Shown here: positions 3,953-49,770 of the stretch, piece after piece | Position numbering within the stretch: the first letter of the stretch is position 1 | How the letters are laid out: each line of letters begins with the position of its first letter | Virus record (IMG/VR): IMGVR_UViG_3300042691_012617 | Span: 104,427 to 168,426 of that record | DNA: 64,000 nt | Reading direction: 5' to 3' (one strand) | Source: a virus | Position numbers and translations under genes: made by a program | The notes under the pieces: generated by a model | What the model saw: only the letters and a program-made list of their open reading frames with translations | Databases searched by the model: none | What the model was told of the DNA's origin: nothing

Positions 3953-4213
3953 TTATCCGCCCTTTGCTTTCTTCCAAAGATCGGCATCAGCAGTCTTGCG
4001 GGTCTTGCCACCCACAATGAAAGAGTTCACACGGGCGAATGCCCATTGATGGCTTGTAGCACCAGGACGGTGTCCCCCCTTCCATGCAGCCATGCCCCTG
4101 TCATACACTTTCTTGAGGATGCCGTATGAAATGCCGCTAGCCTTTGCTTTTTTTTCCAAAGCGGCGATGCGAGCCTCTGTAATGTCTTGTTTCAGGGACT
4201 TGTAGTTTTTCAT
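3953..4213 (-). CDS. Small capsid-targeted basic protein
   Basis: 86 residues starting MKNYKSLKQDITEARIAAL, a clear capsid-targeting leader with I-T-E then A. The remainder (KASGISYGILKKVYDRGMAA, then W-K-x-G-H-R-P-G and WAFARVNSFI) matches a small basic module that I recall recurring in large phages and algal viruses. The ATG at 4213 overlaps the TGA of the upstream 1201-residue gene, so the two are coupled. Function unknown; the net charge suggests nucleic acid contact. Confidence 0.75.
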   Translation of the reverse strand: MKNYKSLKQDITEARIAALEKKAKASGISYGILKKVYDRGMAAWKGGHRPGATSHQWAFARVNSFIVGGKTRKTADADLWKKAKGG

Positions 4214-7200
4214 GACTTCTTCTCGGGGTTGTAGCCCCATACCTTGAGTGCGAGCAACTTGCGTGTTGGGCGACCCTTCTCGTCACGCATGCCGCCCTTG
4301 GCACCCTTCATGCGGTTGATGAAGTTAACTTGCTTACCCGCCCATTTCCAATCGTTTGGTGTCCACTTTTCCTTGGGGGTGTCAAGCATGCGGATGATGG
4401 CACGGGCAGAGTCACGACCACTTGTGATCTTCTTGCCTCCTGCTCCTGCCTTTCCTGCCTCCTTGCGAGACAGACCCGCTTCCTTGCCCTCGTCAGAATC
4501 AAGGAACGACTGAATCTCCTTGCCCGACATGTTTACGAGTTTCTGCCACTCCTTGTAGAGAGCCGACTTTTCCTCTTCCGACTTCTCTTCGCCAAGCCGC
4601 TCACGCTCTCCTGGAGTGTCCTTCTTATATGTCTTGACGATCTCGTCGCTGCCGACCAACAGCGGGCCTCTCTTGCCCATTGCAGTCCATTGCAGGACAG
4701 CATTGATCTTCTTCGATTCGTTCAGCCAGTTCTCTGTGGTATCGGTTTCCTCGCCGTGCATCTTCCACGCAGTAGCATAGAAGACTTCCTTCCAACGCTT
4801 GCCATATCGCTTTTGGAACTCCTTCTTGATCTTCTCTTTCTTGGAGAAGCGACGAGCAGGGCCGCTTGGAGGACTGACTTCGACCAAGAGGTAGTCAAAG
4901 TCTTCGTTGATGTCGGTCTTGGGCAATTCGCTGCCCATCTCGCTATCGCGGATTTCCTTCAGCAAATCAATGTATGAACGAGTCAATTGGGCAGCCTCCT
5001 GCATGTTACGAGTCAAGCAACGCTCCTCGTAGGCAATTGCCATACGAAGTTTGATTGCGTTTCTTTCATCAGATTCATCGATCTTGGACAGACGCTCCAT
5101 TGCATCGTCGTGTTCGTAGCCATTCTTGAGAGCCTTCAACTTACCCTTCTTGGCGAGTTTCTTGTACAGGGTGCTGTACTTCGATGGCTTGGTCTTGATG
5201 TCTTTCTCATCGGGATTGACAAACTCCCATGTCTGTGGATCGTCATCAGACATTGTCTTGCGCTTTTCAAGACGCTTCTTGCGAAGTTCGGCTTCTTTCT
5301 TGCTCAGACCCGCGACATACTTCTTGGGTAGACCCGAACCCTTGTCCTTTGGGCTTTCCTTTGTTTTACCTGTCTTGGTCTTGAACTCCTTGCCCTTCGT
5401 GACATCTGCTTCAATAAGGGGATTGCCTTCCATCTCATCGCCCATACCGAGCATGCTGAGGAAACTCATGGCACCCGACACCAACTTAGTGGCGTAGACA
5501 CCAATATCAATACCACCCGATTCCATGAACTTGTGGAATAGTTTGGCAATGATCTTGCCAATCTTGTTGTCTTGGGCAAACATTGAAAGGGTAACCCCTG
5601 CGCCCGAAGCCTTGTATGCCTGAAGCATGACTTCATCGCGGACACGCATGACTTCTCGCTTGAAATCTGCGGGTGGAATCTTGCCTTTCTTGTTCACCAA
5701 AGTGAAGACCTTTGCGCTGACTGCGGGAGTCTTCATGATCTCCGCAACAGCCTTCGCAGCATCTTTGACTGCGGTCTTTTCAACAAGTTCTTCCTCTTCT
5801 TCCTCGTCGCCCTTGCGCTTGGAGTTGATATCGGGCTGTGGGTAGATCGCTTCTGCGGGATCGACAACCATGCCTGTCTTACTGAGGAACTGCAATCCAA
5901 TCAGCACCTTTGTGGACATGTGACTGCGGTCGCCAAGGCTGAACTTGATGTTGGGATATTTCTTGCCATGGAACTCAATGTCCATGAGAACCACAAGACG
6001 CTTCTTCTCACCGATACCGCTCTTGACGGTGATGCGACTGACGATCTTTTTAGTGACCTTCTTGCCATTGGGCAACTTGAAGGTGACTGTGTGATCGCCG
6101 TTGTCCTTGATGTCCTCGGCATGGATCATGTTGTAGCCGCTGTTGCCCGTGTCGATCTTGGCGGTGTACTCCGCACCATCGATCTTCACTTCTTCACGCA
6201 CGGCTAGGTTGGAGAACAACTTCCAATGTGCCTTGTTGAGGATGTAATCGACCAAGTCCTCTACAAGTTCCTCCCCCTTGACATTGTTCTTGCCCTTGCC
6301 ATCCTCGTAGTAGCGGTAGTAAATGTTTCCGCTACCTGGGCTTGCATTCATCTCAATGATGTATGGCTTGCCCTGATTGATGACATGGTCGATACCGACA
6401 TAGTAGCACTTGCTTACCCTTGCAGCCCGCTCCACCAACTTTATTTCCTCGTCAGAAAGTTGGAAAGACCCGCCCTTTGAACCACGGGCGATATTCGTGC
6501 GGAAGTCCTTGGGTGCCTTGTCTCTCTTGGCACACGCAAAGATCTTTCCGTTCAGCACGATGCTGCGGACATCGTTCTTGAAGTCAGGTAGGAACTCCTG
6601 AATGATGACTTCTGCCTTGTACTTCCATAGCGTCTGAAGCACCGACTTCAGGCTCTCCATGCTTTCGATCTTGGAGACACCGATGCCTTCCGCGCCCGTG
6701 AGAGTCTTCACAATGATCGGGAACTTGCCACCGACTTCCTTGACCGCAGTTTCAATGTTCTCCTCGTTGGCAACGAATGCCGTGCGGGGGTGGGGCAACT
6801 CATGCTTCTTCAGGGCGATTGCCGTCTCCAACTTGTTGGCGCACAGTTCCATGCCACCACGCTCGTTGACCATGAACACGCCATTGTTCTGTAGGATGGT
6901 CATGATTGCGACTCCGATGTCGCTATTCATCACGCCACCGCGAACAATAGCAACCGTGTCGCTTGGATTGATGGTGCAGTCCTTGCCTTCACCGTCATAG
7001 TTCTTGATGACGATCTTCTTCGATGCAACGCTAGAAATGTCAACCTGAGCCTTGCTCGTCTTCACGGCATAGAACTCAATCTTTCGTCGCTTGCAGATCG
7101 CTTCCATCTTCTCAATGGTGTCGCTCAGATCCTTCTCCGACGATGTGAGGGCTAGGATGGTTACCTTGTCCTCTCCATCCTTGGCTTCGAAGATGTACTC

Positions 7201-7815
7201 TTCCTTGAGGTTCAATCCTTTTCGGACATCGTTGTACATCTTCTTCTTGAGAGCCATGTCGGTTCCCGCGACACCTGTGGCAAACTTCTTGAAGTCGCCA
7301 TCAAATGCTGCTGCTCTCATCTTGGAGGCAGACATGCCCTGAACGCCCTGTGCATCATCGTCACGGGCTTCCCCTGCCTGTACGACTTCGAAGTTGTCGA
7401 ATGAGTACTTGCGCTTCTTTGGATCGCGCTCGGCGGTTCTGCCCTTGTACTTTGCGATGTTCTTGAAATTCTCGACCTGATCGCTGCCTGCAATCATCAC
7501 GATGTTCTTGTAGCCCAAGTCACAGACATGCAGAACCGCAGAGTATGGATCTCCCGCCTTGTTCAGAGGGAACTTCGCCTTGGGGAAGAACTTCTTCAAG
7601 TACTCCACCTTCTGCTTATGTGTCAGGGGATTCTTTTTGGGATCCTGTGAGGTAGAGGCAAAGATGAAGTGATCGGCATTCCGCTTGGATGCCTCGGAGA
7701 GAACTTTGTCAACAAGCACACCGTGACCGATTGTCGGTGGGTTCATGCGACCGAATGCAATGACTACCGTGTCTTTCTTCGGTGCTTCCGTGAGGTGCTG
7801 TGCAAAGTTCTTCAC
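4210..7815 (-). CDS. Capsid-targeted multi-enzyme protein: nucleotidyltransferase, RimK-like ATP-grasp, RimB-like protease
   Basis: 1201 residues from GTG at 7815, overlapping the upstream stop (GTGA). Residues 1-10 form a leader, MKNFAQHLTE then A. Residues 14-205 look like a cytidylyltransferase-fold enzyme (GRMNPPTIGHG, with MSASKMR as the ISSTK-like motif). Residues 213-530 look like a RimK/LysX ATP-grasp ligase (PIIVKTLTGAEGIGV at about 366-380 and IIEMNASPGSG at 486-496). Residues 535-655 resemble the RimB-type retropepsin-like protease, with the KIDTGNSGYN active-site loop near D555. The remainder is Lys/Glu-rich with a hydrophobic patch at 770-790 and a conserved tail (SGRDSARAIIRML, GRPTRKLLALKVWGYNP). 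Cut-site-like motifs lie at domain borders: YIFE-A (207-211), LIE-A (801-804), INE-D (969-972), LNE-S (1031-1034). I infer a polyprotein matured in the prohead. Domain calls rest on motifs. Confidence 0.8.
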   Translation of the reverse strand: MKNFAQHLTEAPKKDTVVIAFGRMNPPTIGHGVLVDKVLSEASKRNADHFIFASTSQDPKKNPLTHKQKVEYLKKFFPKAKFPLNKAGDPYSAVLHVCDLGYKNIVMIAGSDQVENFKNIAKYKGRTAERDPKKRKYSFDNFEVVQAGEARDDDAQGVQGMSASKMRAAAFDGDFKKFATGVAGTDMALKKKMYNDVRKGLNLKEEYIFEAKDGEDKVTILALTSSEKDLSDTIEKMEAICKRRKIEFYAVKTSKAQVDISSVASKKIVIKNYDGEGKDCTINPSDTVAIVRGGVMNSDIGVAIMTILQNNGVFMVNERGGMELCANKLETAIALKKHELPHPRTAFVANEENIETAVKEVGGKFPIIVKTLTGAEGIGVSKIESMESLKSVLQTLWKYKAEVIIQEFLPDFKNDVRSIVLNGKIFACAKRDKAPKDFRTNIARGSKGGSFQLSDEEIKLVERAARVSKCYYVGIDHVINQGKPYIIEMNASPGSGNIYYRYYEDGKGKNNVKGEELVEDLVDYILNKAHWKLFSNLAVREEVKIDGAEYTAKIDTGNSGYNMIHAEDIKDNGDHTVTFKLPNGKKVTKKIVSRITVKSGIGEKKRLVVLMDIEFHGKKYPNIKFSLGDRSHMSTKVLIGLQFLSKTGMVVDPAEAIYPQPDINSKRKGDEEEEEELVEKTAVKDAAKAVAEIMKTPAVSAKVFTLVNKKGKIPPADFKREVMRVRDEVMLQAYKASGAGVTLSMFAQDNKIGKIIAKLFHKFMESGGIDIGVYATKLVSGAMSFLSMLGMGDEMEGNPLIEADVTKGKEFKTKTGKTKESPKDKGSGLPKKYVAGLSKKEAELRKKRLEKRKTMSDDDPQTWEFVNPDEKDIKTKPSKYSTLYKKLAKKGKLKALKNGYEHDDAMERLSKIDESDERNAIKLRMAIAYEERCLTRNMQEAAQLTRSYIDLLKEIRDSEMGSELPKTDINEDFDYLLVEVSPPSGPARRFSKKEKIKKEFQKRYGKRWKEVFYATAWKMHGEETDTTENWLNESKKINAVLQWTAMGKRGPLLVGSDEIVKTYKKDTPGERERLGEEKSEEEKSALYKEWQKLVNMSGKEIQSFLDSDEGKEAGLSRKEAGKAGAGGKKITSGRDSARAIIRMLDTPKEKWTPNDWKWAGKQVNFINRMKGAKGGMRDEKGRPTRKLLALKVWGYNPEKKS

Positions 7816-9014
7816 GACTCGTTTACCTTTCTATTCTGTCTGCTGAACCGCAGACGATTGACCAACTTGACCGCCGTACCCGTTCTGACGATCACGATTC
7901 CTTCGGGGTCGGTGGGACGAATACCATCAGCATCCATGAAGAAGTGACCAAGGGCAGAGACCGCATACAACTTTCCAAGGATCATCTCCTTGACCTTTGC
8001 GATCTTGTTATGCAGTTCAAACATAGCATTGAACTGATCCTCGTAAGCATCGATGAAAGCGAGGATGTCGTTCATGGCGGTTTCCTTCGCCTGTCTCCCC
8101 TTCTCGGTCTTCAACTTATTTAGTTCCTTTTCCAACTTAGTCTTTACATACAGTTTCAGACCACTTGCGCTGAAACTGGTCAGACCGCCGTTGATCGTGC
8201 TGTTGATGTAGGGGAGCATCAGCGGCATGAGGTCTTTACGGGCAAGCAGGGGCTTCAGGAAAGGCTTTACCTTCTTGGCTAGCGTCTCGCACTCGGTGAT
8301 GCCCCGAAGCGCGGTATCGCCTTCCCCGCCCTTCAGGAGGGCAGGGGTGAGGTCGTAGATGTTCGGATCGGTGAACCAAACATCAGGATGCTGCTTGAGT
8401 TTGCTAGCGTTGAAGTTGAAGGTGGTTGCCTTCAAATCGGCAAGGGTCTTGCCTGAATACTCGGTGTGGAATGTAATTCCAATCTTTGCGGCTGCAATCC
8501 GCTTGCCGATTTCGCTGTCAGACGGGACGGTGTATAGAATCGTATTTGGTTGGAATCCAATATGTGGCTTTCCGCCAATCGTCAGACTCTTCTTACCATC
8601 AGCGGTGAACATCAGGTCGCCCTGAAGCACACCCTTGATTCCTACCTTTGGCAAATACTTCAGGCATTGAACCAACTTGTCTGCCAAGTCCTTGATGTCA
8701 AATCCCTTGCGAATCTCTTCTTCGGTATGAAACACCTTCTGCACTTGCTTGCCGAAGACACCCTTGATAGCGACGAAAAACTTCTTGTTCTCGGGATTGA
8801 TGCCGCAGATAACAGCAGGCTTTCCATCCCATTTTGTGGACATTCCTAGCGATGTGTTGCCCGTCTTGAGACTCTGAACGATGTCCTTCATGAAGGCAAT
8901 CGCATTGTCCAAGCCACTCCCACCCTTGAGGAGCATGAGATCTTCGATGTGATCTAGGTGCTTGTTCTGCTCAGTTTGCTCCATGAGAGGGAGCATTTGC
9001 TTAAATGACAGCAT
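7812..9014 (-). CDS. Capsid-targeted ligase-superfamily nucleotidyltransferase-like protein
   Basis: 400 residues starting MLSFKQMLPLMEQ, a leader with L-M-E at 10-12. The body resembles a protein family I recall from marine phages without known function. It carries the ordered motifs of the DNA/RNA ligase superfamily: motif I as K61-W-D-G, a motif III-like GVLQGDLMF near residues 125-135, motif IV-like E371-G-I-V-I-V and motif V-like V-K383-L-V-N-R. I infer a covalent nucleotidyltransferase or polynucleotide ligase that may act on injected DNA. A late promoter (9034-9040) lies upstream. The ligase assignment is my inference; the open frame is certain. Confidence 0.8.
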   Translation of the reverse strand: MLSFKQMLPLMEQTEQNKHLDHIEDLMLLKGGSGLDNAIAFMKDIVQSLKTGNTSLGMSTKWDGKPAVICGINPENKKFFVAIKGVFGKQVQKVFHTEEEIRKGFDIKDLADKLVQCLKYLPKVGIKGVLQGDLMFTADGKKSLTIGGKPHIGFQPNTILYTVPSDSEIGKRIAAAKIGITFHTEYSGKTLADLKATTFNFNASKLKQHPDVWFTDPNIYDLTPALLKGGEGDTALRGITECETLAKKVKPFLKPLLARKDLMPLMLPYINSTINGGLTSFSASGLKLYVKTKLEKELNKLKTEKGRQAKETAMNDILAFIDAYEDQFNAMFELHNKIAKVKEMILGKLYAVSALGHFFMDADGIRPTDPEGIVIVRTGTAVKLVNRLRFSRQNRKVNES

Positions 9015-10612: not shown

Positions 10613-11242
10613 TCATTTCTGAAGAACAAAGATTCCACACCCATTCCACCAACCACTTGAATCGTCTGAGCCGTAAAACTCTTGCTTATGAAGCGTTTTA
10701 AGTTTTAGTTCGTTTATGGCACGATATGTTCCATTTTGAACTTTAGACCATGACCAATCATCAACCATGAAGATGAAGGTTTCTGCCATCGAATCGTAGT
10801 AATGTTGAAGTGCGCGGTACTGATTGATCTCTTGATGCTCACCATCGTAGAAGTAAACATCAATATTTGAGATGCCTCTTTCTATTGGATTGAATGAGAA
10901 GCAATCCTGATCGATCAAGTTTGGCTCTCCTCCGATCAATCGCTTCCAATTATCAACAAACTCTTGACGAGGTCCACCAAATTCAGAGAAGTCATCGATA
11001 ACTGTGTAGTTGAGTCTGCTGTGGTTTCCACGGAGGGCTGCAATTGCAGTAGATCCCTTCCACACCCCAATCTCCAAGTAGTTCTTTACGATTTCCTTAG
11101 AAAGCAGTCTGTTTGCAAACCTCTTGTATTTCGCTCCCGAAAATCCCTGAATAGAAAGGATATCGTCAGTTACATTTGACGGCTGCGTGTCATCTAGAGA
11201 CTCTTGTAGGGAAGTAATGAGTTGTTCTACTCTGTTTGTCAT
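10613..11242 (-). CDS. Class I SAM-dependent methyltransferase-like protein
   Basis: 209 residues. The segment NYLEIGVWKGSTAIAAL is the glycine-rich SAM-binding motif I of class I methyltransferases, followed by an acidic strand end (YTVIDDFSEFG) and a later D-V-Y-F-Y-D-G. These features match the small methyltransferase type found in glycan clusters. It is the last gene of the sugar cassette and its start overlaps the stop of the epimerase gene by 4 bases. It may methylate a sugar; the substrate cannot be seen. Confidence 0.7.
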   Translation of the reverse strand: MTNRVEQLITSLQESLDDTQPSNVTDDILSIQGFSGAKYKRFANRLLSKEIVKNYLEIGVWKGSTAIAALRGNHSRLNYTVIDDFSEFGGPRQEFVDNWKRLIGGEPNLIDQDCFSFNPIERGISNIDVYFYDGEHQEINQYRALQHYYDSMAETFIFMVDDWSWSKVQNGTYRAINELKLKTLHKQEFYGSDDSSGWWNGCGIFVLQK

Positions 11243-12168
11243 TGTGTTGCCTCTGTTGTACGAATGTTCTCACCTAGCCATGCCATGAGTTTTACCTTTG
11301 GTGTCCAATCAAGAAGTTCCCGTGCTTTTGTATTGTTGCAAAGAGTATGTCGGGCTTCACCTTGTCTAGGAGGAAGGAATTTGATCGTACCATCCTCTCC
11401 TGCAATGGTTCTAGCGATATGAATTACAGAATGAGATTGTCCTGTTCCGATGTTGATGATTCCACCATTGAAGAATTTGGTAGAGGTTCCTGCTAGTATG
11501 TTTGCTGACACAATATCGGACACATGTATGTAATCCCGTGTTTGCATCCCATCTCCAACAACTGTAAGAGGCTTACCCTCTTCCTTCTGCCGCTTGAAGA
11601 CAGCGACCACGGGACAGTACTGCCCCTTGTTTGACTGCCCCTCCCCGTACACATTGAAGTATCGAAGACAAACAGTATCCATGAACCGTGGCTCGGCATA
11701 CAGTTTGCACAGTTGCTCACACATCAACTTGCTTGTTGCGTAGATGTTCAGACAATCGACAGGCTCGTTTTCGTCCTGTCCACCGCCATAGCCACCCTTA
11801 CCGCCGTTACCATAAATTGCGGATGTGGAAGAGAAGACAAATCGATTGACTCCACCCTTCTTTGCACAGTCCAAGATATTGAATGTCCCTGTGACATTCG
11901 ATGCAAATGTCTTGGCGGGATCAGCAATGCAACGCTGAATGCTAACCTCCGCTGCCATGTGAAACACAGTATCAACTCCCTCAAAATCCGAAGGGACTAG
12001 GTCATTGATGTCTGAATTGATGTTGATGGCACGATCATTCCACTTGAAAGATTCATGCCCTTCCGAACTTTCGTTGTCCACACAGATGACTGTGTGTCCT
12101 TGTTCGATGAGTGTGTTGACTAGGTGTGAGCCGATGAAGCCCGCACCGCCAGTAACCATGTATTTCAT
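11239..12168 (-). CDS. NAD-dependent nucleotide-sugar epimerase (extended SDR)
   Basis: 309 residues, full length for a GalE-type short-chain dehydrogenase. The Rossmann motif MVTGGAGFIGSHL is at 4-16, the SSTSAIYGNG region holds the catalytic Ser, and Y-A-T-S-K gives the Tyr/Lys pair. It interconverts an NDP-sugar, probably at C4. The Shine-Dalgarno GAGG sits before the ATG in the string ATGAGGTATGCACA. It belongs to the sugar cassette between gp41 and uvsX. Confidence 0.85.
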   Translation of the reverse strand: MKYMVTGGAGFIGSHLVNTLIEQGHTVICVDNESSEGHESFKWNDRAININSDINDLVPSDFEGVDTVFHMAAEVSIQRCIADPAKTFASNVTGTFNILDCAKKGGVNRFVFSSTSAIYGNGGKGGYGGGQDENEPVDCLNIYATSKLMCEQLCKLYAEPRFMDTVCLRYFNVYGEGQSNKGQYCPVVAVFKRQKEEGKPLTVVGDGMQTRDYIHVSDIVSANILAGTSTKFFNGGIINIGTGQSHSVIHIARTIAGEDGTIKFLPPRQGEARHTLCNNTKARELLDWTPKVKLMAWLGENIRTTEATQ

Positions 12169-12178
12169 TGTGCATACC

Positions 12179-13096
12179 TCATGATGTAAATTTCTTCAAT
12201 TGCTTGCTGTGGATATGTAGGCTGAGAATTTTGGCTCTATCTCCCGTTCTGCGATCTACCACGGAGAAATACCGTTTTCCTTGCTTGTCCCGCATCTCCT
12301 CGAATCCCCACTTTTTCGTTGCCAACATTCTTCCAATGTAATGATGACCAAAGATAGTGCCAGGTGGATTTCCATTGTTACATCCACCAAAGAACTGACC
12401 GATGCTGATCGGATCAAAGATGCCTCCGATGAAAGACCAAAACTTTGAGAAGTCGCCTTCGACCCAAACGGGAAGAGTATTCACATACACATCTCCCAAC
12501 TCTCTCTGAACACGCTTCCACAAGTACATGTCATACGCTGCTTGTGGATTGTCCTTCTCGTTCATCATCTCCCAAAACTTGTCATTGATGTCCATCAAAG
12601 ACCTGTAATCCTTGATGTACACCATTCCAAAGATCAGGGCATTTTCATGCTCGGCAGTCATGGCGGTTCTGTTGTACAGACGCTTCACTTTTTCGGCTAC
12701 CTCATCCATATTACAATAGATCATGACATCGTTGTCGAACGAGAATGTGTTCTTCAAGTTGTGCTTTTTCATGACCTCTTCAATATAGAAGGGGCGCATC
12801 AAGCAAGCCTTCCAAAGAGGATCCCGATCTCCTGCCCAATGCCCCGTCGAGTCAACATCATACCTAGGCTTCAGATCAGAGATTTTTTCCCACTTGACAT
12901 TCAGCCGTTCGAAGTTTTCTTTGTTGGAAACATTCTCATCGTCCAAGATAACGACGATATCGCTGTTAGGCGACCACTTTCTCGCTTGCTCTAGAGATGT
13001 CCAAATGTGGTTTTCCCACGGATCGTAGTGGGTGTTCGTCTTGGGATCGTATGACTTGTTTCCCATTTGAAAAATGACAATAGATGATTCTGACAT
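12179..13096 (-). CDS. Putative glycosyltransferase, DxD-type
   Basis: 305 residues. The mid-protein FSFDNDVMIYCN looks like the D-x-D metal site of GT-A enzymes, preceded by ARKWSPNSDIVVILDDENV, a typical first beta-alpha unit. WVEGDFSKFWSFIGGIFDP follows. No membrane segment. Its place among NDP-sugar enzymes and other glycosyltransferases supports the role. Shine-Dalgarno AAAGG precedes the ATG. Donor and acceptor are unknown. Confidence 0.65.
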   Translation of the reverse strand: MSESSIVIFQMGNKSYDPKTNTHYDPWENHIWTSLEQARKWSPNSDIVVILDDENVSNKENFERLNVKWEKISDLKPRYDVDSTGHWAGDRDPLWKACLMRPFYIEEVMKKHNLKNTFSFDNDVMIYCNMDEVAEKVKRLYNRTAMTAEHENALIFGMVYIKDYRSLMDINDKFWEMMNEKDNPQAAYDMYLWKRVQRELGDVYVNTLPVWVEGDFSKFWSFIGGIFDPISIGQFFGGCNNGNPPGTIFGHHYIGRMLATKKWGFEEMRDKQGKRYFSVVDRRTGDRAKILSLHIHSKQLKKFTS

Positions 13097-13108
13097 GATG
13101 ATTACCTT

Positions 13109-13819
13109 TCAGGATGGATTTCTTGTGTGAATGATGCAGGGGTCTACTGGATTGCTGTATTGAGTTATGTCCTTTTCCGAGTAGACAAATGTGTTGTGCT
13201 TCCATGAGAGCAGGCTCATGATGCTTTGGTCGTGTCTGTGATCCTTGAACTCTTCGTAGTTGGGCAACCGCTGTGTGTTGGGCAAGTCTGTGAGAATCCT
13301 AGGATCTTTCGCGTACTCCAACCACTCCTTGACAAAGGACATGCTGCCCTCCGTCTTCTTGCATACGAAGATGCTAGCCATTCGCTGATCTGCTCTTCGC
13401 ATTTCCTCTGTGTCCATGCCCATCAGGACAAAGCAGTCTCGTTTTGTGAACATGCCGTTGGTCCCACACCAACCGAATGTGAGGATGCCCATGCTGCCGA
13501 TGCGATCTTCTATAGCATCTATGTCAAGCCATTTCCATGGATTACTTTGGAAGTACATTCCTGCGTCCGTGTACATGAGCCAATCGTTGGTGTTCATTTG
13601 CTCCAAGTGACGGAGAATCAGGTATGGCTTCCAAAGCCAGTATCCCGCACCTCTTGTCTGAGAAAGCGTATACGCATTCTCTTCTCTGAAGCGATCATCC
13701 AAGTCTTCAAGACCATATCCGATGCTCTTGTCGAATCCACCGTGAGATAGTGCGGTATCGCAACACAGTTTCTGTGATGCTTTGTATCTACCGTGGGCGT
13801 AGTTGATGTGAATTTTCAT
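13109..13819 (-). CDS. Putative glycosyltransferase (capsular type)
   Basis: 236 residues. The pattern GAGYWLWKPYLIL followed by WLMYTDAGMYF (D-x-G site) is characteristic of a glycosyltransferase family found in capsule and LPS clusters. Asp94 and neighbours would bind the metal-nucleotide. It overlaps the aminotransferase-like gene by 4 bases (ATGA), so it is translated from the same mRNA. Substrate not visible. Confidence 0.65.
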   Translation of the reverse strand: MKIHINYAHGRYKASQKLCCDTALSHGGFDKSIGYGLEDLDDRFREENAYTLSQTRGAGYWLWKPYLILRHLEQMNTNDWLMYTDAGMYFQSNPWKWLDIDAIEDRIGSMGILTFGWCGTNGMFTKRDCFVLMGMDTEEMRRADQRMASIFVCKKTEGSMSFVKEWLEYAKDPRILTDLPNTQRLPNYEEFKDHRHDQSIMSLLSWKHNTFVYSEKDITQYSNPVDPCIIHTRNPS

Positions 13820-15165
13820 GCAGTTGCAGAAAGATTATTAAAGAACTGATCCACAATCTTGGAGATGTATGAAATCTGTTCCTCTGTGATAACGGGGCTT
13901 GTCCCCAAGAAGAAGGTGTCTTTGGTCACCTTGGTTGCCACGGGGAAGTCATTCTTGGCATCCATATCAACTGCTAGATGCTCATATCCAGGCTGTAGCA
14001 GAATGTTGCCACCGAAATAGTTCCTTGTTTGAATCTTGTTGTCTTCCAAGAACATCGTGAGATCGGTTCTCTTGAAGGGTGCCCCATCTCTGATTGTAAG
14101 TGGAAATGCAAACCAAGCAGGATCGGCCTTTGGTGTGGGGATCGGCAAGTGGAAGTACTGCCCGTACTTGGAGAACACATTCAAGAGCAGGGAGTAGTTT
14201 CGCTTTCTGATGTCGATGATGTTGTCCAACCGATCAAGTTGAACAAGTCCCATCGCTGCTTGCAGATCAAGAGGCTTTAGGTTGTAGCCAATCTCCTCAT
14301 AGACATACTTGTGATCGAAGATCTCATCAGGCATGCTTGGAAGCCAGTTGCTGAACCGCTTCTTGCACATACCGTTCTTAAGACAGGACGCAGCCTTGCC
14401 CGAGCAATAACAGCCTCGCCCCCACTCCCTCAGACTCTTGATCAGCATTTCCTGCTCTTTAGTTCTAGTGGCAATGAAACCACCTTCGCCCATCGTTATG
14501 TGGTGGGCAGGATAGAATGAACAACTAGCCATCTCACCGAACGAGCCTAGCATCTTGCCATCGTAGGTGCTTCCCAAGGCATCGCAGCAGTCCTCAATCA
14601 AGATGAGGTCATACTTTTTCACGATGTCCATCACGGCATCCATGTTGGGAGGATTGCCTAGGACATGTGCAAACATCAATGCCCGTGCCCCGTTCTTGGC
14701 GGCTTCCTCCAACTTGACCACATCCAAATTCAGAGTATCGACTTCAATGTCGATGAATACTGGCGTGAATCCGTTCTGAATGATGGGGTTCACAGTAGTC
14801 GGAAATCCTGCAACAGGGGTGATGATCTTGGACCCCTTCGGAAGATTCCAAATCTTCCGCGATGTGAGAGCAGACACCATCAGGAGGTTTGCGCTAGAAC
14901 CGCTGTTTGTGAGACAGCCGTGATCCTTTCCAAGCCGCTTGGGGAACTTGTTTTCAAACCTAGTACCGTTCTCTCCTAGGCAGAGCCAACCACCCAAGAG
15001 GCATTCAATGACTGCGATGTACTCCTTCTCGTCCATGAACGAGCCTGAATACTGCACCCAATCAGTTCCTTCCTGCCAAGTCTTTTTCTTGGAAGAAACA
15101 ATTTCGGTGACCAGTTTGTTGATCAACTGCTGCTTGTCTTCAAGACGAATGTTTAGTTCCACCAC
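13816..15165 (-). CDS. rfbH: RfbH-type NDP-4-keto-6-deoxyhexose 3-dehydrase (PMP, Fe-S)
   Basis: About 449 residues from the proposed GTG at 15165, with GAGG upstream (GAGGTATCTACAA GTG). A longer frame reaches 15198 but only through a TTG. DegT/DnrJ/EryC1 fold. Instead of the usual PLP lysine there is His in YPAHHITMGEGG, and four cysteines cluster in CYCSGKAASCLKNGMCKKR; both are hallmarks of the E1 dehydrase that uses PMP and a 2Fe-2S cluster to remove the C3 hydroxyl. It makes 3,6-dideoxysugars such as abequose or tyvelose precursors. The enzyme normally needs a ferredoxin-type reductase (E3), which I do not see in this window, so the host may supply it. Confidence 0.85.
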   Translation of the reverse strand: MVELNIRLEDKQQLINKLVTEIVSSKKKTWQEGTDWVQYSGSFMDEKEYIAVIECLLGGWLCLGENGTRFENKFPKRLGKDHGCLTNSGSSANLLMVSALTSRKIWNLPKGSKIITPVAGFPTTVNPIIQNGFTPVFIDIEVDTLNLDVVKLEEAAKNGARALMFAHVLGNPPNMDAVMDIVKKYDLILIEDCCDALGSTYDGKMLGSFGEMASCSFYPAHHITMGEGGFIATRTKEQEMLIKSLREWGRGCYCSGKAASCLKNGMCKKRFSNWLPSMPDEIFDHKYVYEEIGYNLKPLDLQAAMGLVQLDRLDNIIDIRKRNYSLLLNVFSKYGQYFHLPIPTPKADPAWFAFPLTIRDGAPFKRTDLTMFLEDNKIQTRNYFGGNILLQPGYEHLAVDMDAKNDFPVATKVTKDTFFLGTSPVITEEQISYISKIVDQFFNNLSATA

Positions 15166-16046
15166 TTGTAGATACCTCTTGCTTGCTTTGGTGTCCAACC
15201 TATGTTGCGAATTTTACTGGTGTTCAGCGAGTAGCGCAAGTCTTGTCCCCACCGATTCGGAACAAATTGTATCTCGTCTCTTGTTTTTCCAAAGACATTC
15301 AAAAGCGTTTCAACCACCTCAAGATTGGTCATGTGGTTGTCTGCACCGATATTGAAGGTATCGTTCTTGACACCGTTCGCAATCAGGGTGTAGATTCCAT
15401 CTGCATTGTCCTTCACATAAATCCAATCTCGCACATAGGAACCGTCTCCGTGGAGAGGAATCTTCTTTCCAGTTTCAAGGCAGCGAATCGACTTGGGGAT
15501 CAACTTTTCATAATATTGCCGCTGACCATAGTTGTTCGAACTGCGGGTAATCAGGTAGTTGATTCCGTAGGTGCGATGATAGGAAAGAACAAGCATTTCC
15601 GCTGCTGCCTTGGACGCGGAATACGGGTTGCTAGGAGTCAGTTTGTCAGACTCGCTGAAAGACCCATTTGGTCTATCTCCATAAACCTCATCTGTGCTGA
15701 TCTGTACAAATAGAGGTCTCTCATGTGGTGGCTTGCCACGGATGATCTCAAGTAGATTGTGAACCCCAATGATGTTGCTTCTGATGAAGGGGTTTGTATC
15801 GTTGATTGAGTTGTCAACATGAGTTTCGGCAGCAAAGTTGACAAGAACATCACAAGAAGGGAGATGCTTTATCTCGCAGATATCTGCCTTGTGGTGCTTG
15901 TAGTTTGGATTGCCATCGAAAGGCAGTTCCTCATTTGAGCAGTAGGTCATGCAGTCGAAATCAACGACCTTATGCCCCTCTGCAAGAGCCTTTTCGACAA
16001 AGTGACTACCAATAAAGCCACGCCCGCCTGTCACAACTAGTTCCAT
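15153..16046 (-). CDS. NDP-glucose 4,6-dehydratase (RmlB-like)
   Basis: 297 residues from ATG 16046, which follows GAAAGG. Extended SDR with VVTGGRGFIGSHF at the N-terminus, the ISTDEVYGD motif (Thr-Asp-Glu triad of 4,6-dehydratases), Y-S-A-S-K as the catalytic Tyr/Lys and SSNNYGQRQ. It forms NDP-4-keto-6-deoxyhexose, the substrate for the RfbH-type enzyme next to it. The TDEVYG form is more like RmlB (dTDP) than RfbG (CDP), so the nucleotide may be dTDP or UDP. It overlaps the next gene slightly. Confidence 0.87.
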   Translation of the reverse strand: MELVVTGGRGFIGSHFVEKALAEGHKVVDFDCMTYCSNEELPFDGNPNYKHHKADICEIKHLPSCDVLVNFAAETHVDNSINDTNPFIRSNIIGVHNLLEIIRGKPPHERPLFVQISTDEVYGDRPNGSFSESDKLTPSNPYSASKAAAEMLVLSYHRTYGINYLITRSSNNYGQRQYYEKLIPKSIRCLETGKKIPLHGDGSYVRDWIYVKDNADGIYTLIANGVKNDTFNIGADNHMTNLEVVETLLNVFGKTRDEIQFVPNRWGQDLRYSLNTSKIRNIGWTPKQARGIYKWWN

Positions 16047-16063
16047 GATAAACCTTTCAGATG

Positions 16064-16891
16064 TCAAATGCCTAGAATTTTGTCAACCGCTTGCATCGTA
16101 TTTATGGATGGTCTGTATCCATAGGATCGAAGTTTGTCGTTGTTGAGACAAACATCTTTCACCTGTACAACCCGATGAAAATGCGGAGTTTCAATCGACA
16201 CCAACTCCGATGATGAGTTCAGTTTGTCCTTGCTATATCGTATGATGTCGCCAATCTTGCTTGGCTCAGAGTTGCTTATGTTTATGATCTCGCCCACGGG
16301 GGCGCGAGTCACGGATGTGTTGATAGCCCTACATGCATCTTCAACATCCATGAAATCTCTGATGTTGGAACCCCCGTCATAGAGTTTAACTGGCTCGTCT
16401 GCTCTCAAGAGGTTGATCATGTTTTGCAGAGCGTTCTTCTTGGGGGAAACACCCCTATCACCGCTGCCAATGATGTTGGTTAAGCGAAGTATTCGGTACT
16501 TCATCCCCATCGTTTCACAGTAGCAAATCAGCATCTGCTCTGCCGCTCTTTTTGTGATGGAATAGAATCCTCTAGGATCGCAGGGATCAGATTCCTTTGT
16601 GTCTAGAGTGCAGTTCATCCCATATACAAACCAAGAACTCACAAAATTGAAAGTGGCAGTTGGATACTTCTTTCGTGAAGATTCCAACACATCAATCAAC
16701 TTGCTGAGATTGGTGTCGATGTCCTTGTGCGGTTCTGTAAAGATGTGATAGTTGTGAGTCGTACTGATGAAGTACAAAATGCTGTCGGACAGCGGCTCGT
16801 CTTGATCCCGAGGAACCAACACAGTATCACCGCCATACATCTTCGCGTATGTTCCACCAACAAATCCTGTGCCACCATATACAGAGATCAT
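16064..16891 (-). CDS. NAD-dependent sugar epimerase/reductase (SDR, RfbJ-like role)
   Basis: 275 residues from ATG 16891. The Rossmann motif VYGGTGFVGGTYAKM is at the N-terminus, then FVSSWFVYGMN and FYSITKRAAEQML for the catalytic Ser, Tyr and Lys. It could reduce or epimerise the 4-keto intermediate after RfbH action, the role of abequose or paratose synthase, but it could also be an epimerase. The call rests on fold and neighbours. The upstream stop lies close to the start; the Shine-Dalgarno is weak. Confidence 0.75.
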   Translation of the reverse strand: MISVYGGTGFVGGTYAKMYGGDTVLVPRDQDEPLSDSILYFISTTHNYHIFTEPHKDIDTNLSKLIDVLESSRKKYPTATFNFVSSWFVYGMNCTLDTKESDPCDPRGFYSITKRAAEQMLICYCETMGMKYRILRLTNIIGSGDRGVSPKKNALQNMINLLRADEPVKLYDGGSNIRDFMDVEDACRAINTSVTRAPVGEIINISNSEPSKIGDIIRYSKDKLNSSSELVSIETPHFHRVVQVKDVCLNNDKLRSYGYRPSINTMQAVDKILGI

Positions 16892-16895
16892 GATG

Positions 16896-17780
16896 TTAGG
16901 CCCCAATCTTCATCTGTTCAATCCACCAAGAAGACTTCAACATATTCATATTCCATGTTGTCTTACTGAACTCTTCGTATGTCTTGTTTAGAAGGTCTTC
17001 AGTCACATCTTGGTACGAATTTACGAACAGAATCGGTAGATTTCTCTCTAGCGAGGAGTGAACATGATTCCTCTGAACAATAGGAATCACACCACAATAA
17101 AGAGACTCCCACATTCGATGTGTATCAACTCCATTACCACGCGGGCAAAGCATGAACTTGTGATCAAGAAGTTCTTCTTTGTATGACCCCAATTGACCAC
17201 CCTCTACGGGCTGACGAACAGTAGCCCACGGCTTGTCCGAGAACATTGGATACAGAGGCTCACGAACATCAGGTCGAGTCCATGTACGATGGTTCACATA
17301 AAGAAGACGGTTGCCTTTTGTTTTGGCAGCATCAAGCCCCCTCTTAGCGGTTAGACCCAACACACAGAAGTCATCCGCGATTCCTAGGGGGACACCGTGT
17401 GCCCTACTGCACTCATTATTACATCCCCACCATGTGACTGAAAGTTTTGACTGCATCGCGTCAAAGATAGAGTCGGTGATTGCGTAATCACTTTGTCCCG
17501 TCAGTAGAATGAAAGGAGTGCTACATCTGTTGTTGTTCAGGTACGCAACTAGATGTCGCAAGTAGTCGAACTTACAGTAGACTACGGATTTTGGAGTTAG
17601 GGCAGCAAAGTTAAACAGATTGATATAATCGCCGTGATGATTGCTTCTACGGGCAACTTGCTGTGCTGTTGGGGGAATTCGATATGCGCCATCCAATGCA
17701 GATATGGCAAACCAAAAATCACATTTGGATATTAGGTTTTGAGAACTTAGTACCTCTGTTGGCTCAATTTGCAGATTCAT
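16896..17780 (-). CDS. Exostosin-like glycosyltransferase
   Basis: 294 residues from ATG 17780, whose ATGA overlaps the stop of the preceding gene. The signature is KFMLCPRGNGVDTHRMWE followed by LYCGVIPIV, which is typical of the nucleotide-binding half of exostosin/GT47-like enzymes. There is no signal peptide. The first third is variable and holds four to five cysteines. It belongs to the phage glycan cassette; linkage and sugar cannot be told. Confidence 0.7.
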   Translation of the reverse strand: MNLQIEPTEVLSSQNLISKCDFWFAISALDGAYRIPPTAQQVARRSNHHGDYINLFNFAALTPKSVVYCKFDYLRHLVAYLNNNRCSTPFILLTGQSDYAITDSIFDAMQSKLSVTWWGCNNECSRAHGVPLGIADDFCVLGLTAKRGLDAAKTKGNRLLYVNHRTWTRPDVREPLYPMFSDKPWATVRQPVEGGQLGSYKEELLDHKFMLCPRGNGVDTHRMWESLYCGVIPIVQRNHVHSSLERNLPILFVNSYQDVTEDLLNKTYEEFSKTTWNMNMLKSSWWIEQMKIGA

Positions 17781-36115: not shown

Positions 36116-36116
36116 G

Positions 36117-36198
<82 letters not shown>

Positions 36199-36201
36199 GA
36201 A

Positions 36202-36273
36202 AGCCACCTATCGGATTTGAACCGATGACCTGTTCATTACAAGTGAACTGCACTACCGCTGTGCTAAGGTGGC
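36202..36273 (-). tRNA. tRNA-Thr (anticodon TGT)
   Basis: Acceptor GCCACCT/AGGTGGC, anticodon arm GTTCA-CTTGTAA-TGAAC, T-arm ATCGG-TTCAAAT-CCGAT. Confidence 0.92.
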
Positions 36274-36276
36274 GTA

Positions 36277-36347
36277 TTCCCTCGTATGGATTCGAACCAT
36301 AACTAGAAGAATCAAAATCTCCTGTGCTACCGTTACACAACAAGGGA
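36277..36347 (-). tRNA. tRNA-Gln (anticodon TTG)
   Basis: Acceptor TCCCTTG/CGAGGGA, anticodon arm GGAGA-TTTTGAT-TCTTC, T-loop TTCGAAT. Confidence 0.9.
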
Positions 36348-36348
36348 A

Positions 36349-36420
36349 CTGGTTCGGAAGGATTCGAACCTTCAACCGTCCCGTTAACAGCGGGATGCAC
36401 TACCGTTGTGCTACGAACCA
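36349..36420 (-). tRNA. tRNA-Asn (anticodon GTT)
   Basis: Acceptor TGGTTCG/CGAACCA, anticodon arm TCCCG-CTGTTAA-CGGGA, T-arm GAAGG-TTCGAAT-CCTTC. Confidence 0.92.
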
Positions 36421-36425
36421 TCAAG

Positions 36426-36499
36426 GGTGTCTGACGGGACTTGAACCCGCAACGGGGAGAATCACAATCTCCTGCACTACCAATTGTGCTACAGTCACC
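36426..36499 (-). tRNA. tRNA-His (anticodon GTG) with encoded G-1
   Basis: Anticodon arm GGAGA-TTGTGAT-TCTCC. An extra 5' G opposite discriminator C73 is encoded, the identity element for HisRS. One A-A mismatch lies in the acceptor stem. Confidence 0.88.
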
Positions 36500-36502
36500 G
36501 TA

Positions 36503-36582
36503 AGCGTAGTGAGGGTCTTGAACCCCTTCTCAATCGCTGCTTGCAAGTCAACGATCCTATCCAACCTAGTGTCGGGCTACGC
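36503..36582 (-). tRNA. Divergent tRNA-like gene, possibly tRNA-Cys (GCA)
   Basis: The acceptor GCGTAGC pairs over 7 bp with ACTACGC and the T-loop is TTCAAGA, but the D-arm is irregular and the anticodon stem CGTTG/CAGCG leaves a nine-base loop, ACTTGCAAG. Read with U33 before it, GCA is the anticodon and discriminator U73 suits Cys; TGC (Ala) is the other reading. It may be degenerate. Confidence 0.4.
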
Positions 36583-36586
36583 GAAA

Positions 36587-36658
36587 AGCGAACGATGGGA
36601 TTCGAACCCACGACCATCGGTTTGGAAAACCGAGACTCTACCGCTGAGTTACATTCGC
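36587..36658 (-). tRNA. tRNA-Gly (anticodon TCC)
   Basis: Acceptor GCGAATG/CGTTCGC, anticodon arm TCGGT-TTTCCAA-ACCGA, T-loop TTCGAAT. Confidence 0.92.
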
Positions 36659-36663
36659 GTGAA

Positions 36664-37006
36664 TGGAGTCGGGGGGAATCGAACCCCCGTGTTGACATGC
36701 TTTCCGTGGTGCCTACTACGCCAATAGCCTTCACTTGTTCAGATCCGCCGCTGAAGGCGACTTAGCGGATCAGAGTGGGACTCTTTGTTCTCGGCTTCCT
36801 TCGGCGTTCCCGTTCCCGAAAGCCCAACCGCTGATTTGCTCCTTACACCCTAGCGGTGTCGTAGTGCTTGGAGGTCACGCTGCGAGAGCGTAACGGCGAG
36901 TCTGCTTGTTGGCAGTTTTGGTTTCCATACGCTTTTAAGAGCCTAGCATGGTTCCTCTTGGCGCATCACTCATCAGTCTTCATGCAATCGATGCCTGATC
37001 GACCCC
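36664..37006 (-). ncRNA. ssrA: Phage tmRNA (ssrA), one-piece
   Basis: 343 nt. The 5' GGGGTCG pairs with 3' CGACTCC plus discriminator A, and the T-arm is GGGGG-TTCGATT-CCCCC. The acceptor has G3:U70, the alanine identity element. Between the ends is a short reading frame at 36875-36913: GCC AAC AAG ... TAC GCT CTC GCA GCG TGA, giving tag peptide ANKQTRRYALAA, with the usual Y-A-L-A-A degradation signal. An ATG-started frame in the same register begins at 36928, but in tmRNA the resume codon is normally an Ala codon, so GCC is my choice. tmRNA rescues stalled ribosomes. A sigma70-like promoter lies just upstream and the tRNA cluster follows, so both are probably one transcript. Confidence 0.9.
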
Positions 37007-37028: not shown

Positions 37029-37057
37029 AGTCTAGCACACATCTTGGTTCTTGTCAA
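37029..37057 (-). promoter_or_regulatory. Sigma70-like promoter of tmRNA and tRNA cluster
   Basis: TTGACA (37052-37057), 17-base spacer, TAGACT (37029-37034), about 16 bases before the mature tmRNA 5' end after allowing for the start site. Confidence 0.75.
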
Positions 37058-37059
37058 CC

Positions 37060-37425
37060 TCACTTTAGGCGAAGTAGATACTTTGTTTTGTTCAGGTCGC
37101 CTACCATCTCGTCGCGGATGTTGAGAAGATCCGTGTCCTCGGGCTTGAGCATGGCAGGAACATCCTTGGTCATGTACGCAATAGTTTTGTCGATGAATTC
37201 GACACAACCCGCGTTGTCCTTGTAGTTGACCACGGTCAGTTTGTAATCGTTCTTGGCAGTAGGAACGCCATAACGCCCTGAGAAAGTCTCAACGAACTCA
37301 TCGATGTTGCTACCCAGGGAATCATAGAGACCTCCCAAAGCCTGATGTTCGGCGTAAGACTTGGTTTGCCAATGGAAGACTCGGATTTGAGCCTGAAGGG
37401 TGAGTAGGGTGGTGATGAGTGTCAT
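37060..37425 (-). CDS. Dps/ferritin-like small protein (tentative)
   Basis: 121 residues, all helical. LLTLQAQIRVFHWQTKSYAE then HQALGGLYDSLGSNIDEFVE has the W-H/H-W and E/D spacing of Dps-like four-helix proteins. A small phage family with this pattern exists. It may bind iron or DNA, which I infer only from the fold-like pattern. A CTAAATA late box lies five bases before the ATG, leaving no space for a Shine-Dalgarno site. Confidence 0.7.
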   Translation of the reverse strand: MTLITTLLTLQAQIRVFHWQTKSYAEHQALGGLYDSLGSNIDEFVETFSGRYGVPTAKNDYKLTVVNYKDNAGCVEFIDKTIAYMTKDVPAMLKPEDTDLLNIRDEMVGDLNKTKYLLRLK

Positions 37426-37437: not shown

Positions 37438-37673
37438 CCTTCCTCTGTGAGGTACTGGCTGATGTCCTTTTTCATCTCCTCAATACTTCTTTTTGCATCC
37501 TCAAGGATCTTGCGCGAAGCCTCGGCATAACCAATCCGATACTCCTCCCAATAGACAGTCTTATCACTAGTTGCGCTGCCCCATCCCATAGGGGAGGCGT
37601 TTGGCTTCCCCGCTTGGCGGTCGTTCCAACCATCCTTGTACCCCTGACCAGGGGAATAGATCACATCACTCAT
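37434..37673 (-). CDS. Small hypothetical protein
   Basis: 79 residues. The N-terminal half is Gly/Trp-rich (QGYKDGWNDRQAGKPNAS), a pattern found in small phage proteins with G-Y-x-D-G-W-x-D; the C-terminal 35 residues are helical and charged. Starts at an ATG that overlaps the upstream stop. Function unknown. Confidence 0.65.
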   Translation of the reverse strand: MSDVIYSPGQGYKDGWNDRQAGKPNASPMGWGSATSDKTVYWEEYRIGYAEASRKILEDAKRSIEEMKKDISQYLTEEG

Positions 37674-38011
37674 GACTTCTTTCCCTTTCCAACCTTGCGG
37701 GTGACGAGGATCTTGCCATCGCGGACGCGGATGTCAAGAGGAGTCCCCACCCGAATCTTCATCTTGCGACAGACCTCAGGTGGGATGCGAATATAGCACT
37801 TCTTCTCACTTGTCTCCTGACCCGTCTTGGGGTCTAGGTCAAGGAAAAGAGATTCTTCGATGGGAACGATCCATGAAGTGGGTGGCTTCTCCGAACGCTT
37901 CTGTTTTGGCTTGGACTTTTCACCAAAGATCGCGTCATAGTTCCTGTCGAACTCGGACTTGTTGATTGGGCGATACGAGTCGCCCTTTCCTGCACCGTGA
38001 ATACCTTCCAT
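37670..38011 (-). CDS. AbrB-like small protein
   Basis: 113 residues from ATG 38011 (GGAGTTGTT upstream). The N-terminal GAGKGDSYRPINKSEFDRNY then I-F-G is a short conserved phage motif. The C-terminal CYIRIPPEVCRKMKIRVGTP then LDIRVRDGKILV has the strand-loop-strand pattern of SpoVT/AbrB DNA-binding domains. It could be a small transcriptional regulator. Domain call by pattern only. Confidence 0.65.
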   Translation of the reverse strand: MEGIHGAGKGDSYRPINKSEFDRNYDAIFGEKSKPKQKRSEKPPTSWIVPIEESLFLDLDPKTGQETSEKKCYIRIPPEVCRKMKIRVGTPLDIRVRDGKILVTRKVGKGKKS

Positions 38012-38033
38012 AACAACTCCTTTCAATCACTAG

Positions 38034-38112: not shown

Positions 38113-38715
38113 TCATTGTACAGATCTGAACCATGCAGTCATAAAGGAATCCGCTTCCTGATATGACTCAAACACGAATGGCTTGCCCTTCATCTTGCTG
38201 TAGAACTGGCTCACCTTCATCGGCTTGAAGTCTCCGACAGAGACCTCTTTCCCCATGCCTGGAAACTCTACTGCATTTCCATCCTCATCCTTGCCTTGTG
38301 TGCCGATCAGCATGCCCTTGCCATCGAACGACTTGTACAACACGGAGTCTTGGTTGTACTTCGATCCCAACTTCTTTAGCATGCCCTTCAACTTACCGCT
38401 GTCATCGCCTTTGTCTCCAATGACGAGAAACGCCTGTTCCTTCACATCCTTGGATACCTCGGAGCCGTACCCTTCGATGTAATGTCCTTCGACCTTGTAG
38501 AAGCCAAACCCCGCAGAACGAATCTCTGCTTGGAGTTGTGCATTCCGCTTCTTGTTCTCGGACACAGGATAGCGACCGCGATAGGCGGTGATGATCCCGA
38601 TGTTGCGCTCCTGCGTGTGCTGCCACAGGCGAACGAGCGATGCCTCGTCAAGGATCTGCATGCTGCTTACTTCATTTGCAGTCTCTGTGAGATTCTTTAG
38701 GGTGTCCTTGTCCAT
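38113..38715 (-). CDS. Conserved phage protein (DUF3293-like pattern)
   Basis: 200 residues. IGIITAYRGRYPVSENKKRN then EIRSAGFGFYKVEGHYIEGY and EQAFLVIGDKGDDSGKLKGM follow the order of a family with the I-x-A-x-R...N-x-x-x-N...E-x-x-F-x-V motif, of unknown function. GKPFVFESYQEADSFMTAWF closes it. AAAGG lies before the ATG. No leader of the capsid-targeting type. Confidence 0.7.
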   Translation of the reverse strand: MDKDTLKNLTETANEVSSMQILDEASLVRLWQHTQERNIGIITAYRGRYPVSENKKRNAQLQAEIRSAGFGFYKVEGHYIEGYGSEVSKDVKEQAFLVIGDKGDDSGKLKGMLKKLGSKYNQDSVLYKSFDGKGMLIGTQGKDEDGNAVEFPGMGKEVSVGDFKPMKVSQFYSKMKGKPFVFESYQEADSFMTAWFRSVQ

Positions 38716-48702: not shown

Positions 48703-49770
48703 TCATACCCGTGGCTTGCCTGTCGGAGGATCTGTGTTGATTGTCCCCGAGGTAACAACGGCTTGTTGAAAAGTTGGAATATTGTATGACCCCCATGCTG
48801 CCAGTACGCGAGAGAGATCGATCCCATCAACCTTGCCGTCCCCATCCATGTCCTCAAAGATAGGTTTCGTCTGTCCCCACCGAGCAAGGATTTGGCTCAG
48901 GTCTGCCCCATCGACCACACCGTCCTGATTGATGTCTTCCTTCTTGGCAGACAACTTCACATGCTGCAACTCATATCCGAAGGGAGCAAGTGCTGCAACG
49001 AGGTTGGCAAAGGTAGCCTTGTTGATCGACTGACCACCATACTGCAATCCAACGAAGACGGTCTCTCCATATGCATCCCGTACCATCACGGGAGAACCCG
49101 AGTCGCCCACGAAGATCGCAATTGTTCCATTCGGATACGCACCATCATTGATGCCGTCCAAGGACGGTGTCAAGTTGTATCCACCTGTATCGTTCGTAGT
49201 TGTATTCAGATATGCATTCTTAAAGAGTGTCTTGTAGATCTTACCGTTGCTGTCCTTCGTCCACAGCGAAGTTCCCGTGGGGATGTAAAGCGGGTCAGCG
49301 ATCCTGTTGTAGATCTTTAGGTCTGCATTTGGGAACTCTCTGTCGAACTCAAGCAGGGTCAGGTCGGGACCGATGTTGAGATAAACACGGGTCACCTTGT
49401 TCTCATAGAACGCACCGCCCTTGCCGAGAAAACGAATGCCACCCGTATTGATATTTGGGTCTGCGTGTCCACCACGGAAGTGTTGACAGATCAATGCATG
49501 GCGGGGCGAGATCAGTACCGCACCGTAGGTGCATTGGTTCCAAAAGTTCACGCTGTTTCGATCATACGGAATCGTAAACATACCGCTGTTCGAAATGTTG
49601 TTGCAGAAGTATCGATGGAGGGCGCGTGTGCCCGACCAATCGATGTACTCATATGTTTGACATTCCGAATTGTAACCATCGGGCGCAATACCCCCGCTCG
49701 TTGGTGTGGCTTGTGTTGGGTAATGGTATACATCATGGATCGCGGGTGTGTAATAGCGCAGGACTGCCAT
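48703..49770 (-). CDS. Trypsin-like protease with C-terminal dockerin-type repeat
   Basis: 355 residues. LISPRHALICQHFRGG (H97), NIGPDLTLLEFD (D137) and FVGDSGSPVMV (S225) give a complete chymotrypsin-type triad. At the C-terminus two Ca-binding repeats, DINQDGVVDGADLSQILARW and DMDGDGKVDGIDLSRVLAAW, form a dockerin type I unit, a feature common in secreted proteins of Planctomycetota and cellulolytic bacteria. No signal peptide is visible, so it may be virion-borne or released at lysis. A late promoter (49797-49803) and AAGGAG precede it. Confidence 0.85.
   Translation of the reverse strand: MAVLRYYTPAIHDVYHYPTQATPTSGGIAPDGYNSECQTYEYIDWSGTRALHRYFCNNISNSGMFTIPYDRNSVNFWNQCTYGAVLISPRHALICQHFRGGHADPNINTGGIRFLGKGGAFYENKVTRVYLNIGPDLTLLEFDREFPNADLKIYNRIADPLYIPTGTSLWTKDSNGKIYKTLFKNAYLNTTTNDTGGYNLTPSLDGINDGAYPNGTIAIFVGDSGSPVMVRDAYGETVFVGLQYGGQSINKATFANLVAALAPFGYELQHVKLSAKKEDINQDGVVDGADLSQILARWGQTKPIFEDMDGDGKVDGIDLSRVLAAWGSYNIPTFQQAVVTSGTINTDPPTGKPRV

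Follow-up and report, generated by a model that had tools for sequence, protein, structure and literature searches.

A conserved one-piece tmRNA gene with a basic tag in genomes of uncultured T4-like phages

Introduction

tmRNA frees stuck ribosomes and marks unfinished proteins for destruction. A 2014 list of phage tmRNAs covered ten phages (PMC4131195). A later survey detected tmRNA in 402 of 18,146 phage genomes (2.3%), T4-type phages whose tmRNA is two-piece being among them (PMC9004378). Genome reports on cluster C mycobacteriophages routinely list one tmRNA (e.g., PMC9583779), and the tmRNA of phage Wildcat is the most highly expressed lytic gene of that phage (PMC7474061). Huge phages carry tmRNA together with SmpB (PMC7162821).

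Several of these systems resemble the locus described here. The marine phages Melnitz (an OM43 phage), Mosig (a Pelagibacter phage) and their relatives likewise carry ssrA; in Melnitz, a T4-type myophage, it lies downstream of an early-type promoter (PMC9004378). The Melnitz tmRNA is, however, of the permuted two-piece form, whereas the present one is one-piece, and a glutamine riboswitch occurs in both Melnitz and Mosig (PMC9004378), whereas no riboswitch matched Rfam at gathering thresholds here. Cluster C mycobacteriophages (Bxz1, Cali, Catera etc.) and Wildcat have one tmRNA in a large lytic genome, and cluster C genomes also hold many tRNA genes, as does the genome studied here, but the hosts of these phages are actinobacterial and their lineage is unrelated (PMC4131195, PMC7474061). 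Enterococcus phage 113 (MZ147816; 156 kb) has an annotated tmRNA within a tRNA array, as here, but belongs to the Herelleviridae, and the DNA similarity is limited to 35 nt at the 3' end. Phage-encoded ribosome rescue is also shared with the huge phages, whose set includes SmpB genes (PMC7162821), whereas none was found in the record analyzed here.

The first-pass annotation of this DNA had regarded tmRNA genes as rare and confined to a few phages. The survey figure weakens this view, and a strict tmRNA pattern scan of IMG/VR matched at least 120 stretches, although many of these probably represent tmRNA genes of hosts that flank prophages. That a few percent of phages carry a tmRNA is thus already known; what is described here is the one-piece form in an uncultured T4-like clade.

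Results and Discussion

The phage genome

The window, that is the whole stretch of DNA analyzed, is the final 64 kb of a 168,426-base IMG/VR record. The record carries T4-type genes for a gp43-type DNA polymerase, a sliding clamp (gp45), a clamp loader (gp44), a DnaB-type helicase and UvsW, as well as T4-type structural genes (gp23 capsid, terminase, tail sheath, baseplate wedge and hub). By its gene content, it can be assigned to an uncultured, presumably lytic, myophage of the T4 superfamily. The closest catalogued polymerases are those of cyanophages and are only about 50% identical, so that the phage belongs to a separate branch of uncultured phages.

Some other genes of this record deserve mention. 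A dockerin type I domain occurs in one protein and a cohesin domain in a second, an unusual pair for one phage genome. Elsewhere, two long adjacent proteins are encoded at 4210-9014 (minus strand), one of which matches cytidylyltransferase and S6 glutaminyl transferase-like PHROGs, and sugar-nucleotide genes at 11239-16906 adjoin them.

48703-49770 (minus strand) and record positions 7106-8290 (plus strand; L109): dockerin type I / cohesin protein pair

Identity of the tmRNA gene

ARAGORN called a one-piece tmRNA in standard order, with tag ANKQTRRYALAA, on the minus strand of the window.

36664-37006, minus strand: one-piece tmRNA (ssrA) gene of 343 nt, without encoded CCA (ARAGORN, Rfam RF00023, alignment of relatives)
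37000-37006, minus strand: 5' strand of the acceptor stem, GGGGTCG, contributing G3 to the alanine identity pair G3:U70 (read from the sequence; no variation among the relatives)
36664-36671, minus strand: 3' strand of the acceptor stem, CGACTCC, with discriminator A (sequence)
36672-36688, minus strand: T-arm, GGGGG-TTCGATT-CCCCC (RF00023 match; stem invariant among relatives)

The first-pass annotation had proposed a complete tmRNA at this position, with a tRNA-like acceptor bearing G3:U70 and a perfect T-arm, and had suggested a covariance-model search as a check. Both structural elements are present in the DNA, and the search (Infernal/Rfam) gave a match of 83.9 bits (E = 4.4e-31) over model positions 1-374 of RF00023, almost twice the gathering score of 47. 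The gene is nonetheless diverged, its score being about half that of bacterial tmRNAs (approximately 145-200 bits among the Chloroflexota matches listed). The seven pairs between GGGGTCG and CGACTCC, including G3:U70, make up with the T-arm an alanine-type tRNA-like domain that is invariant in relatives. Since CCA is absent from the 3' end of the gene sequence, it would have to be added post-transcriptionally. A two-piece (permuted) form, in which the 3' domain comes first, was rejected, as ARAGORN reports the standard order and the covariance-model match is full-length and co-linear.

Conservation, fold and tag

Relatives, defined as IMG/VR contigs found via the polymerase and clamp genes, contain nine further tmRNA genes at the same location, 73-93% identical to that of the window. 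These nine and the window's tmRNA constitute the second alignment, in which the identities to the window's gene are 72-94% and to which one additional copy, identical to the window's (L046), is extra. The relatives share a locus with a DUF5856 gene or a tRNA-Leu on one side of the tmRNA and a tRNA array on the other, and in all nine genes the acceptor and T-arm are intact and the tags end in R[LY]ALAA. No tmRNA was found in the stretches examined of distant relatives with a clamp identity of about 51% or less, nor in several large contigs with a polymerase identity of 36-49%, so that the gene appears to be restricted to one clade, many of the relatives' records being fragments.

The predicted fold contains four pseudoknot regions.

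36925-36959, minus strand: pseudoknot 1, 5' of the tag, with AAGAG:CTCTT and CCATGC:GTATGG-type helices (2 pairs changed on both sides, 100% paired)
36827-36873, minus strand: pseudoknot 2 region, 3' of the tag, with CTCC:GGAG and CCGCT:AGCGG (4 double-changed pairs in the second helix; first helix read by eye)
36776-36824, minus strand: pseudoknot 3 region, with GGCTTTC:GGAAGCC and GGGA:TCCC (8 pairs changed on both sides)
36739-36771, minus strand: pseudoknot 4 region, with GATCCGC:GCGGATC and a weak second helix (covariation test)

Covariation was evaluated in the first alignment, comprising five distinct sequences, for the acceptor, the long P2 helix, the T-arm and the helices of the four pseudoknot regions. 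Standard pairs occupied 97.8% of the cells, and 21 of the 73 pairs were changed on both sides, a count that was equalled by none of 500 shuffles; these double changes argue strongly for a fold under selection. Pairing fell to 38-45% when the partner was slid by one to three columns, a control that is lenient because the structure was drawn from the same sequences. Pseudoknots 1 and 3 show covariation in at least one helix, while pseudoknots 2 and 4 each combine one covarying with one weaker helix, the weakest being the second of pseudoknot 4 and the first of pseudoknot 2.

Between pseudoknots 1 and 2 lies the tag.

36875-36913, minus strand: tag reading frame from resume codon GCC to stop TGA, ANKQTRRYALAA (ARAGORN; in LALAA, L044 and L045 differ at third positions, synonymously)

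As the first-pass annotation had read it, the internal frame ends in Y-A-L-A-A: from the resume codon onwards, GCC AAC AAG CAG ACT CGC CGT TAC GCT CTC GCA GCG TGA closes in the small hydrophobic degron ALAA. Five tag variants occur in the clade (ANKQTRRYALAA, AKFNKKQSRRLALAA, ARFNKKQSRRLALAA, AKFNVQPRQRLALAA and ANKQPYRLALAA), all with Ala first and R-[L/Y]-A-L-A-A last. L044 and L045 have an identical tag, the codons of which differ at three synonymous third positions only.

tmRNA genes are common as integration sites, and many matches of the IMG/VR pattern scan carry ANDENYALAA, the enterobacterial tag, as expected if they are host genes beside prophages. On these grounds, the locus could be an attachment site of a prophage, with the tmRNA belonging to host DNA, or the decaying remnant of a captured host ssrA. 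It lies, however, deep in a T4-type genome, flanked by conserved phage genes in several relatives; there is no integrase among the annotated genes and no close match among the bacterial tmRNAs sampled. The shared locus in relatives, the compensatory changes and the constrained R-[L/Y]-ALAA ends indicate a maintained gene, and rule out an attachment-site remnant to the point that this reading is close to refuted.

A further alternative, put forward for the domain-only tmRNA of phage DS6A, is a decoy that would block trans-translation in the host by titrating SmpB; the form consisting of the tRNA-like domain alone is present in DS6A, and such RNA inhibits tmRNA (PMC4131195, PMC11915505). Yet the present gene is full length, and a decoy would need neither its constrained tag nor its covarying pseudoknots, which makes this role very improbable. 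On sequence grounds, we instead read 36664-37006 as a complete, maintained and structured phage tmRNA gene with a constrained tag.

Charge of the tag

The contrast drawn by the first-pass annotation between a Lys/Arg-rich tag and common acidic bacterial tags is real in the sample examined. The net charge is +3 for the window's tag, and the clade members span +2 to +5. The 54 unique viral-contig tags (strict tmRNA pattern) include a single other +3 tag, an evident mis-call, and the 35 unique Chloroflexota tags reach at most +2 (e.g., ANNNTRVQPRLALAA); the highest credible net charge in this sample, which represents viral contigs and Chloroflexota rather than all bacteria, is thus +3. While the window's tag ranks as the most basic among the credible tags of the sample, bacterial tags of +2 do exist. 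Within this sample, a basic tag kept by a whole uncultured phage group is mildly unusual.

The first-pass annotation had proposed that tagging could thereby be steered toward or away from certain proteases. Such a tag, basic and devoid of acidic DE residues, might be tuned to redirect tagged proteins, either evading SspB-like adaptors or host proteases, or suiting another protease. Its top rank in the sample and the positive charge retained throughout the clade would fit this idea. On the other hand, the LAA end, which is read by ClpX-type proteases, is invariant. Moreover, a search for SspB recognized none in the record and matched only 2 of 14 control genomes, so that the host may have none to escape, and given the +2 tags of Chloroflexota, the phage tag may simply resemble that of its host. 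We consider redirection unlikely, and it is likewise doubtful that the strongly basic tag of the one-piece tmRNA in this T4-like clade is unlike the host's and gives proteins tagged during infection another fate than proteins bearing the host tag.

Promoter and genomic neighbourhood

The tmRNA gene is flanked by the following features.

37029-37057, minus strand: sigma70-like promoter, TTGACA-17-TAGACT (ends 22 nt before the tmRNA gene; TG precedes the -10 element)
37060-37425, minus strand: upstream gene, DUF5856 / PHROG 858 family (profile matches)
36116-36658, minus strand: downstream tRNA array, Gly(TCC), His(GTG), Asn(GTT), Gln(TTG), Thr(TGT), Tyr(GTA) (ARAGORN; none with encoded CCA)

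The gene heads a tRNA cluster, in agreement with the first-pass annotation, the first of the six same-strand tRNAs following after 5 nt (ARAGORN). Three further tRNAs (Leu, Lys and Arg) lie upstream of the tmRNA, and all twelve RNA genes are inside the window, with none in the other 104 kb of the record.

An own promoter had likewise been proposed. It is plausible, since the layout recurs in relatives of diverged sequence: in L043, L344 and L345, TTGACA-16-TACAAT is found, likewise 22 nt ahead of the tmRNA. Against this, about one promoter-type match is expected by chance in the region, and no such promoter precedes the tmRNA in L044, L045, L349, L350 and L353. In these five relatives, 5-7 nt separate the DUF5856 stop codon from the start of the tmRNA, which, lacking the promoter, is probably co-transcribed with the DUF5856 gene.

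Within the array, the gap between tRNA-His and tRNA-Gly (36499-36586, minus strand) resembles a decayed tRNA: its ends match, and it contains a T-arm-like motif. In the relative L342, this gap is filled by an intact tRNA-Ser(GGA), although its alignment with the window's gap is poor (55 of 101 columns identical). Near the tmRNA, 38113-38715 (minus strand) encodes an S-adenosylmethionine lyase family protein (PF23780) that is kept in relatives and is possibly a counter-defence gene, and 37670-38026 (minus strand) encodes a MazE/AbrB-type domain protein (PF04014), for which no obvious toxin partner was noted.

Proposed function and partner factors

Neither SmpB nor a CCA-adding enzyme was recognized in the record by searches that were positive in control genomes, suggesting that the tmRNA depends on host factors; it would require SmpB, alanyl-tRNA synthetase and CCA-adding enzyme of the host. 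The locus very probably encodes a functional one-piece tmRNA of a T4-superfamily phage, engaged in ordinary trans-translation with these factors. According to this model, the tmRNA and the tRNA array would be transcribed together, starting at the sigma70-like promoter of the tmRNA or reading through from the DUF5856 gene; the tmRNA would then be matured by RNase P and the host CCA-adding enzyme, and charged with alanine by alanyl-tRNA synthetase through G3:U70. Expression of a phage tmRNA has a precedent in Wildcat (PMC7474061). Broken mRNAs are expected during infection. Host SmpB and EF-Tu would bring the tmRNA to ribosomes stalled on them, which would be freed while A-ANKQTRRYALAA is added to the peptide, the LAA end of the tag marking the product for ClpXP-type proteases. 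The phage would benefit by keeping ribosomes free while host RNAs decay.

The benefit of phage tmRNAs to the phage has so far mostly been inferred, and the present genes add to this class a well-supported one-piece clade with natural tag variants. Five such variants, borne on a covarying scaffold, would lend themselves to experiments on how a phage profits from encoding a trans-translation RNA, and in particular on whether the tag matters or ribosome release only.

Candidate hosts

The pattern A-[KN]-x-N-...-R-L-A-L-A-A matched GTDB genomes in Chloroflexales and Rickettsia. A Chloroflexus-type bacterial tmRNA with tag ANNNTRVQPRLALAA matches the 15-residue phage tags in length and in its RLALAA end, but the two RNAs are not close outside the T-arm, leaving kinship unsupported. 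More generally, the phage tmRNA is not close to any of 49 Chloroflexota or 108 other tmRNAs, Chloroflexota tags vary widely, and of 301 Chloroflexota genomes only 1 yielded gp23, with an identity of 55-65%. A host assignment from the likeness of the tags was rejected for these reasons, and Chloroflexota are an unproven lead. The gp23 in question, of T4 type and in a Chloroflexota bin (L340; G131:C7:50000-69000), was matched in two pieces with an in-frame TAA; it is possibly interrupted by an insertion, or the contig may be a co-binned phage contig.
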